From assembly GCF_907163125.1 (NCBI RefSeq), contig NZ_OU015319.1:2852001-2916000 (forward strand): a stretch of 64,000 nucleotides of DNA, in the 5' to 3' direction. Made by a program: the position numbers and the translations under genes. Positions 5,374 to 6,397 of this stretch are shown piece by piece. Origin of the DNA: Cloacibacterium caeni (GTDB lineage: Bacteria; Bacteroidota; Bacteroidia; Flavobacteriales; Weeksellaceae). Each line of letters opens with the position of its first letter. Position 1 is the first letter of the stretch. The notes under the pieces were generated by a model. It did not search any database, had not been told where the DNA came from, and saw only the letters and a program-made list of their open reading frames with translations.

Positions 5374-6333
5374 TCAATTTAATTTTCTTTTTCTTTCTCG
5401 CTTTTCTATGTAATCTAGTACGGCTTCTTTGGTTGTAAGCCAGTTTCTACCTTCCTTGAAAGCGTCTATTTTTCCCTTTCTAGCCAATAAACTTACGTAT
5501 TCTTGTCCATAAGGAAGCCTTTCTTCTTCTACAATATTAGAAATCGGGCGATAATTATCATACGTATTATTGAGAGAACCTAAATAAATGTCTAAACTTC
5601 TCTCTAAAGCTTGAAGAACTAATAATAAAATTTTAGAATAATCTCCATTATTTGCTAAGTTTAAAGCATCATAATATTTTTTTCTATCATTTTTAAGGAT
5701 AATTGCAGGAGGAAAACCTTCTCTCATCAATAAAAGATTGAAAATCAAACGTACAGTTCTACCATTTCCATCGAAAAACGGATGAATCCAAACAAATCTG
5801 TGATGAAAAATTGCCGCTTTTATAATAATATTTATATCTGATGAATTTACCCAATCAATTAATTCTGTTACCAATTCATCTACTTTAAAAGCGTTTGGTG
5901 GAGTGAAATTAGCTCCAGAAATTCTTACACCAGAAGTTCTGAACATTCCAGCAAAATCTTTTTCAATTTTTTGTAAAACCAAATAATGAACTCTCATAAT
6001 ATCGGTTTTGTTTAAATTTTGTTTATCCGATATTAAAGACTCTACAAATTCTATCGCTTCTTGGTGATTTACCGCTTCGAAATGTTCTCTCAAAGATTTT
6101 CCTTTGATGGTAAAACCTTCTTCAATCACCATTTTTGTTTCGTGTAGCGTCAAAGTATTTCCTTCGATGCTATTAGAATTATACGTCCATTCTAGCATTA
6201 AACTTTCTTTAATGCTTTTCACAGCATAACTAGGAATTGGGCGTAATTGATCTAATTCTGTTTTTTTTTGCAGAATTCTTTCGAGGTGTTTTTCCAAACC
6301 TTCAAAGTGATAAGAATAATTTTGCCAATTCAT
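5374..6333 (-). CDS. Fic family AMP transferase-like protein with C-terminal DNA-binding domain
   Basis: Fic-fold enzyme of 319 residues, predicted to transfer AMP (or another nucleotide moiety) to a target protein; the target is unknown. The full active-site motif HPFFDGNGRTVR is present at residues 184-195, and the target-clamping flap is near 129-146. The N-terminal region has the inhibitory-helix motif SNSIEG (residues 53-58), fitting (S/T)xxxE(G/N), which marks a self-inhibited Fic of the class with the inhibitory helix at the N-terminus. The last 50 residues (YGQEYVSLLARKGKIDAFKE, GRNWLTTKEAVLDYI) resemble the excisionase-type winged helix, suggesting DNA binding. Operator-like palindromes lie upstream and inside the gene. 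No separate antitoxin gene is adjacent. Confidence 0.9.
   Translation of the reverse strand: MNWQNYSYHFEGLEKHLERILQKKTELDQLRPIPSYAVKSIKESLMLEWTYNSNSIEGNTLTLHETKMVIEEGFTIKGKSLREHFEAVNHQEAIEFVESLISDKQNLNKTDIMRVHYLVLQKIEKDFAGMFRTSGVRISGANFTPPNAFKVDELVTELIDWVNSSDINIIIKAAIFHHRFVWIHPFFDGNGRTVRLIFNLLLMREGFPPAIILKNDRKKYYDALNLANNGDYSKILLLVLQALERSLDIYLGSLNNTYDNYRPISNIVEEERLPYGQEYVSLLARKGKIDAFKEGRNWLTTKEAVLDYIEKRERKRKLN
5996..6036. promoter_or_regulatory. Second operator-like inverted repeat, inside fic
   Basis: The right arm TTTATCCGATATTAA (6022-6036) is the exact complement of the promoter-proximal arm of the upstream operator. The left arm (5996-6010) keeps the core TAATATCGG. Arm-to-arm span is 41 bp, the same as upstream. 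It lies in codons for residues about 100-113 of the Fic protein. Function inferred only from matching sequence and geometry. Confidence 0.5.
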
Positions 6334-6337
6334 TTGA

Positions 6338-6345
6338 CAAAGGTA
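6338..6345 (-). promoter_or_regulatory. -7 promoter element of fic, possibly leaderless
   Basis: Minus-strand TACCTTTG matches TAnnTTTG. Its last base is only four nucleotides from the ATG at 6333, so transcription would begin at or next to the start codon. Either the mRNA is leaderless or a later start codon is used. Confidence 0.6.
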
Positions 6346-6356
6346 AGGAATTTTTC

Positions 6357-6397
6357 TTAATATCGGATAAATTTATTTTTATTTTATCCGATGTTAA
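6357..6397. promoter_or_regulatory. Operator-like inverted repeat upstream of fic
   Basis: Arms TTAATATCGGATAAA (6357-6371) and TTTATCCGATGTTAA (6383-6397) are complementary at 14 of 15 positions with an 11-nt A/T spacer. It covers roughly -24 to -64 relative to the likely start of transcription of fic, where a repressor or activator would act. The C-terminal winged-helix-like domain of the Fic protein is the obvious candidate binder. Confidence 0.6.

Follow-up and report, generated by a model that had tools for sequence, protein, structure and literature searches.

How a stand-alone fic gene could be kept in check with no antitoxin gene at its side is the question raised by a locus of Cloacibacterium caeni, lying in a stretch of 64,000 nucleotides that we call the window and from whose first letter all positions are numbered (Table 1). 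A 41-bp inverted repeat reading TTAATATCGGATAAATTTATTTTTATTTTATCCGATGTTAA is found 23 nt before the fic start codon, and a second one of the same span, ATAATATCGGTTTTGTTTAAATTTTGTTTATCCGATATTAA, falls within the coding sequence. Both had been described in an original prediction made from the letters alone, and direct reading bears that description out, since the two palindromes have in common the exact 15-nt stretch TTAATATCGGATAAA, on opposite strands. In a repeat search the two places align over 55 nt at 73%, and the 12-mer ATATCGGATAAA has just two exact copies in the 2.98-Mb genome, both of them at fic.

Table 1. Features of the fic locus, in window coordinates.
Feature	Position	Strand	Basis
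fic, 319-aa class II Fic protein with predicted C-terminal winged helix	5374..6333	(-)	Pfam, 80-member alignment, fold model
Predicted winged helix-turn-helix, C-terminal, residues 264-311	5401..5544	(-)	Structure prediction, fold matches
FIC catalytic motif HPFFDGNGRTVR, residues 184-195	5749..5784	(-)	Translation
Intragenic palindrome (possible auxiliary operator), fic codons 100-113	5996..6036	(.)	Sequence; synonymous-recoding tests
Inhibitory motif S53-NSI-E57-G58, N-terminal	6160..6177	(-)	Alignment
-7 promoter box TACCTTTG (TAnnTTTG type)	6338..6345	(-)	Sequence; between palindrome and start codon
Promoter palindrome (candidate operator), fic strand TTAACATCGGATAA-N13-TTATCCGATATTAA	6357..6397	(.)	Sequence, conservation

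The product of the gene matches the Pfam Fic domain at 4.4e-23 and has the two marks of a class II Fic protein, namely a catalytic motif of the form HPFx[D/E]GNGRxxR (HPFFDGNGRTVR) and, near the N-terminus, the stretch S53-N-S-I-E57-G58, of the form [S/T]xxxE[G/N] that defines the inhibitory motif. Across 80 aligned proteins, which are the window's own and 79 relatives, S53, E57 and G58 are invariant, and so are H184, P185, F186, D188, G189, N190, G191 and R195; judging from sequence, the protein probably AMPylates other proteins. The relatives came from a scan of genome contigs that found 435, from which the best 80 were kept on protein alone, with identities of 98-60%. The closest named one among those best 80 of 435 is a Cloacibacterium normanense protein (98% identity), and we take the record names of those kept to denote Flavobacteriia-, Sphingobacteriia-, Chitinophagia-, Saprospiria- and Cytophagia-type organisms. 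Of the solved structures, animal FICD comes nearest to the catalytic domain in sequence (E 4e-44), with the Bacteroides BtFic 3cuc at only 2e-24, and by fold FICD/HYPE is again the nearest, a protein that is not known to have a DNA-binding tail. According to the titles of its structure entries, FICD/HYPE acts on BiP.

It is at the other end of the chain that a link with DNA was suspected, as the protein had been proposed to finish in an excisionase-like winged helix. Structure prediction does give such a domain: the full-length model has a mean pLDDT of 79, and the last 63 residues modelled alone reach a pLDDT of 90 and follow the order helix, helix, beta hairpin, helix. Foldseek ranks the lambda Xis-DNA complex first for this domain (E 0.13, probability 0.97) and lists BldC-DNA complexes lower down, and a second structure aligner returned BldC, Xis, GlnR and MerR regulators with Z of at most 5.8, modest fold scores for a small predicted domain. 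The HTH_17 family matches the Fic protein of the window with an E of 0.0027 and 18.4 bits, under the Pfam cut-off of 27, and matches 30 of the 80 members at E up to 0.01. By prediction we thus call the C-terminus a lambda-Xis/BldC/MerR-like winged helix, and membership of HTH_17 is not claimed.

If such a domain were to recognise the upstream palindrome, the site should be seen at orthologous genes. The upstream site scores 27 out of 28 letters of a consensus derived from the window itself, and shuffled upstream regions (single-base shuffles, 10 per locus) give a mean of 17.2 and a maximum of 21. In a first set of 80, made of the window and 79 relatives with readable upstream sequence, 65 score at least 21, compared with 0.25% of the shuffles. 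The set was enlarged to 121 distinct loci with duplicates removed, 97 of them with the C-terminus (a match that extends at least to query residue 300) and 24 without. The core ATCG-N22..25-CGAT occurs near the fic start in 89 of the 97 loci with the C-terminus, so orthologous genes have retained the palindrome, versus 2 of the 24 without it (L126 and L137), in which just 5 and 7 arm positions out of 14 match. Where upstream sequence was available, a score of at least 20 was reached in 88/96 loci with the C-terminus and 0/23 without it, and a score of at least 21 in 80/96 and 0/23; an inverted-repeat test free of any consensus, asking for at least 12 of 13 arm matches, gave 39/96 versus 0/23, with 0.7% in shuffles. 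As many of the loci are related, these counts are not independent trials. The strict core is missing in eight of the 97: L078 has no upstream sequence, L135 is 5'-truncated, and in six (L035, L042, L059, L063, L073 and L120) the site looks degenerate by eye. The half-site consensus is TTAATATCGGATA, and the core measures 32 nt in 67 loci and 31 nt in the other 22 (n=89). Two arrangements stand apart: locus L093 (Pedobacter fastidiosus) has two operator-like palindromes in tandem before fic, and L064 has its candidate operator 143 nt ahead of the fic start codon, some 120 nt farther out than in its close relatives.

A sample of 395 Bacteroidota genomes gave the same picture. A Fic match was present in 206 of them and 30 loci were fetched, among which a site of at least 21 precedes all 11 full-length genes with the C-terminus, our own included, and none of the 18 homologues without it. 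The remaining fetched case, L135 (1501-2028), is a 5'-truncated fic remnant that retains the FIC region and the winged helix, and its palindrome is gone. Twelve of the 395 genomes gave a match to the C-terminal sequence, always on this Fic subfamily. Moreover, 13 other Fic genes were taken from genomes in which the winged-helix type is present too, and none of them reaches 20, the best scoring 19 (one of the 13, L197, has no intact frame at the place inspected). From its sequence, the upstream palindrome is thus a conserved element of the fic promoter. The C-terminus and the site may have been inherited jointly in one clade, which would make the association partly a single evolutionary event, and so it is read here as an association, not as proof of binding.

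The position of the palindrome tells what a bound protein could do. The Bacteroidetes -7 consensus is TAnnTTTG (PMC7366714, in the part available), and a box of this type is found at most 45 nt past the core in 75 of 89 loci (3.8% in shuffles), or in 82 of the 89 if it is also permitted inside the palindrome. The gap between core and box is 5-9 nt in 41 loci and 15-17 nt in 27 (n=89), the two classes being about one helix turn apart. Helical phasing of palindrome and box has a resultant of 0.54 at a period of 10.5 in 27 representatives (P 0.00035 against uniform positions), in a post hoc test where periods of 8-11 come out nearly as high over all 82 loci. Given that the palindrome is located on the promoter, a protein sitting there would occupy some of the polymerase site.

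A different view of the same repeat is that it works as RNA, as a terminator, attenuator or leader hairpin. Inverted repeats this large can form hairpins, a similar repeat elsewhere in the genome looks like a terminator (see below), and paired double changes in the two arms exceed independence at two positions, +5 (13 versus 8.2 expected) and +6 (10 versus 3.2). Fewer than one such change is expected at each of -3 to -1 and at +4, so the zero seen there says little, and the excess at +5 and +6 could each come from symmetric recognition, from descent or from an RNA stem; the pattern of arm changes thus favours neither protein nor RNA recognition. Against a role as RNA stand the conservation of the half-site sequence itself and the order of the elements, as in the 75 loci with the box downstream the palindrome would not be transcribed from that promoter. 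We regard this explanation as very improbable.

If protein is what binds, the effect on fic could still be other than simple repression, with Fic binding its operator as an activator or as a MerR-like switch between repressor and activator. The likeness of the predicted winged helix to MerR-type domains speaks in favour, and so do a site that mostly lies upstream of the -7 box and two distances about a helix turn apart; the box inside the palindrome in 5 of the 82 loci is a better fit to blocking, and the closest tested protein, CccR, is a repressor in the available part of its description (PMC9755527). On balance, activation or a switch seems unlikely to us, and repression is the reading we carry forward.

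Who would bind is the next point, since the palindrome could belong to another regulator, one that acts on fic in trans. In favour of this is the mutual-information scan of operator letters versus protein columns, which did not single out the C-terminal domain. One pair picked post hoc from the covariation is suggestive: residue 296, which in the model sits between the two wing strands, is R in loci where the GG of the operator is kept 63 times and its second G lost 4 times, and K where it is kept 10 times and lost 10 times (Fisher 2.8e-5, ignoring kinship and excluding two loci with another letter). On a tree where 38 of 175 branches carry K, these account for 5 of the 8 gains of a lost second G. 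Operator position 4 has matches as good or better in the Fic part, at residues 128 and 50.

Three results weigh against a trans regulator, the first being that no other comparable site was found in the genome except a terminator-like repeat. Searched for the gapped palindrome, our genome gives the fic locus plus one repeat at 1071189, which was considered as a second operator and judged a terminator, as it comes after a gene and has a T run behind it. This repeat (L107:1501-1527) is a 27-bp ATCGGATA palindrome, probably a terminator, with two tandem small genes downstream that look helix-turn-helix by eye. The looser core ATCGG-N20..23-CCGAT occurs at nine places in the genome, of which the two fic sites alone exceed 18 of 28; the other seven were set aside, with scores of at most 18/28 and positions within stop-free frames of 166-624 aa. 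A further 23 places with a single half-site were also rejected, the best pair never having both cores nor exceeding 21 (L010 with 21; L003, L015 and L023 with 20). Within our own genome, no place outside fic matched the scores of the two sites there. Over the 395 genomes, the strict pattern occurs at 25 places in 23 genomes, and a reversed control pattern at 4; our own upstream site escapes it because one arm reads ACATCGG. Twelve of the 25 places were classified, as five fic promoters, our intragenic site and six alike in one genus. One of these six (G170, L190 about 929-964) lies inside a methyltransferase-like coding sequence, presumably RlmF, and similar strings in G206, G316, G174, G025 and G222 belong to a conserved coding stretch in one genus, so the core alone is no proof of a site.

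The second result concerns the neighbours, which vary between lineages. Among complete frames of at least 80 aa within 1.5 kb on either strand, a count that misses longer genes, the commonest family is present in only 12 of 97 loci, and among same-strand frames of at least 30 aa within 400-500 nt the largest family is in 9 of 97. In the window itself, the gaps beside fic hold no same-strand frame of at least 30 aa. Since the neighbour families differ across loci, no linked regulator or antitoxin gene travels with fic, and the earlier proposal of a circuit with no separate antitoxin agrees with these counts. In the third place, the Fic homologues examined that have no winged helix have no site upstream, even in the same genomes. 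A separate regulator as owner of the palindrome is, in our judgement, quite unlikely.

We therefore hold it as likely that fic is a one-gene, self-controlled module in which the winged helix of Fic itself binds the promoter palindrome and represses fic, with no separate antitoxin. In molecular terms, we infer the following. The AMP-transferase would be restrained by its own N-terminal inhibitory motif, and a dimer of the Xis/MerR-like winged helix would bind TTAATATCGGATA-N-TATCCGATATTAA, whose ATCG cores are 27-28 bp apart, or about 2.6 helix turns. As the palindrome would overlap the RNA-polymerase site at the -7 box, binding would repress fic, and this negative autoregulation would keep the enzyme scarce. 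The two usual jobs of an antitoxin, inhibition and autorepression, would in this way be built into the Fic enzyme. That Fic controls its own gene had been the core of the original prediction, and it came through the two checks that could be run, on the fold and on the palindromes of orthologous genes, with a palindrome that tracks the C-terminus; its looping component fared poorly, as the intragenic site makes clear.

The intragenic palindrome scores 24 of the 28 consensus letters, and the simplest account of it would be a coincidence of coding and not a binding site. Its full core is found at the same codons in only 9 of 97 loci (the window's own locus L110 together with L027, L153, L154, L028, L074, L031, L064 and L066), it has half disappeared from L029, L159 and L160 and is missing from the close relative L030, and synonymous conservation at its arms is just moderately high, ranking 26 and 51 of 313 windows. 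Moreover, the distant L066 is outside the 16 lowest P values in the recoding test. Three more core matches within coding sequences (L039, L042 and L095, making 12/97 in total) were discarded, with positions elsewhere in the gene and scores of 15-16. On the other side, synonymous recodings rarely recreate the site. In the window, a score of 24 was reached by 1 in 4000 recodings with the codon usage of the clade and by 0.2% of 2000 with that of the gene itself; with clade usage, the observed score was reached in 1/4000 for L064 and 0/4000 for L028, L031 and L074, and with own-gene usage P ran from 0 to 0.002 in eight close-clade loci. A P of at most 0.005 was obtained for 11 of 95 genes, with 0.5 expected and the sequences being related. 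L064 has S in place of T just ahead of the right core and has nonetheless kept CCGAT. Coincidence is an explanation with real weight, though we lean to the other side: the intragenic site was probably selected in one lineage, outside the general design, and in the Cloacibacterium/Epilithonimonas group it is probably, with a weaker case than that of the promoter site, an auxiliary site for Fic acting through a roadblock or a loop. The proposal that both sites are bound with looping between them did not hold as a general one, with the intragenic core in so few loci, its loss in L030 and a distance between the centres of the two sites of 358.5-362.5 bp in eight loci that becomes 481.5 bp in L064.

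The idea that a Fic protein can repress its own gene is not a new one. As early as 2009, the Fido paper raised the possibility that fic expression is under the control of HTH domains fused to Fic, and Phd autorepression is mentioned there as well (PMC2686095). The principle of an autorepressing Fic-HTH protein is known from CccR of Yersinia pseudotuberculosis, which the part of its report available describes as a Fic domain with a C-terminal HTH and an inhibitory motif in the same chain, binding promoter inverted repeats as a dimer, with negative autoregulation demonstrated through footprint, gel shift and reporter (PMC9755527). The footprint covers AGATAATCAT-N26-ATGATAATCT near -35 and -10, palindrome mutations relieve repression and a dimer-interface mutant fails to restore it (PMC9755527, same part). 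CccR is also described there as a secreted T6SS effector that AMPylates FtsZ, and Fic proteins bearing an HTH as widely distributed (PMC9755527).

The Fic protein of the window resembles CccR in having a predicted C-terminal HTH, an inhibitory motif in the same chain and an inverted repeat over the fic promoter. It differs in that the half-sites here have an ATCGG core and are 27-28 bp apart, unlike AGATAATCAT-N26-ATGATAATCT, and its HTH is by prediction Xis/MerR-like. Furthermore, here the operator was followed through many Bacteroidota lineages and has a possible intragenic companion.

Other relatives of this design are partial ones. CbFic2 of Coxiella burnetii is a class II Fic whose C-terminal wHTH, called DeoR-family, binds DNA; binding was measured on random DNA and induces dimerisation and activity, and the available part of the report describes no operator (PMC10628234), whereas here a candidate operator is defined from sequence. 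SoFic of Shewanella oneidensis (PDB 3eqx, 3zcn) is likewise a Fic with a C-terminal wHTH, of low sequence similarity to ours (E about 5e-8) and with a C-terminal domain that ours matches weakly; its DNA binding has not been demonstrated, according to the part of PMC10628234 available. A functional parallel is found in toxin-antitoxin systems, where the inhibitor and the enzyme are separate. The phd-doc system is of type II, with an enzyme of Fic fold and autorepression at its own promoter, and in comparison with it the inhibitor, the enzyme and the predicted DNA-binding domain are one protein here, with no widely common antitoxin-like neighbour.

Among the literature matches listed, in a search with subscription journals mostly outside its scope, none dealt with an operator of a Fic protein from Bacteroidota or with the autoregulation of one, and among the matches listed we found no Fic-HTH with an identified operator besides CccR. 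What is new here is then the predicted type of HTH, the operator, its spread through Bacteroidota and the lineage-specific second site. A second and different candidate operator of a Fic-HTH, with a different predicted HTH type and conserved through Bacteroidota, points to autorepression by the enzyme as a design that recurs among stand-alone Fic proteins with built-in inhibition.

A defined site also permits asking whether DNA binding and AMPylation are coupled. In a bolder and rather doubtful extension, the Fic dimer on the promoter, and in Cloacibacterium and relatives also on the intragenic operator, would be a stored, inhibited form, whose release from DNA would both activate the enzyme and derepress fic, with ATP level, self-AMPylation or a target as the trigger. 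Were this so, DNA itself would play the part of the antitoxin in a one-gene module present in many Bacteroidota lineages.

Finally, some observations concern the occurrence of the gene itself. In our 2.98-Mb genome, fic is the sole Fic gene found. In six other listed genomes of one genus (G446, G459, G468, G403, G430 and G476), the gene is patchy, three of them having it and three giving no match at E 1e-30. One homologue (L065:1501-2463) has an in-frame stop after residue 124, as a broken gene or an assembly error, and viral contigs contain five relatives with 30-34% identity that cover part of the Fic domain.
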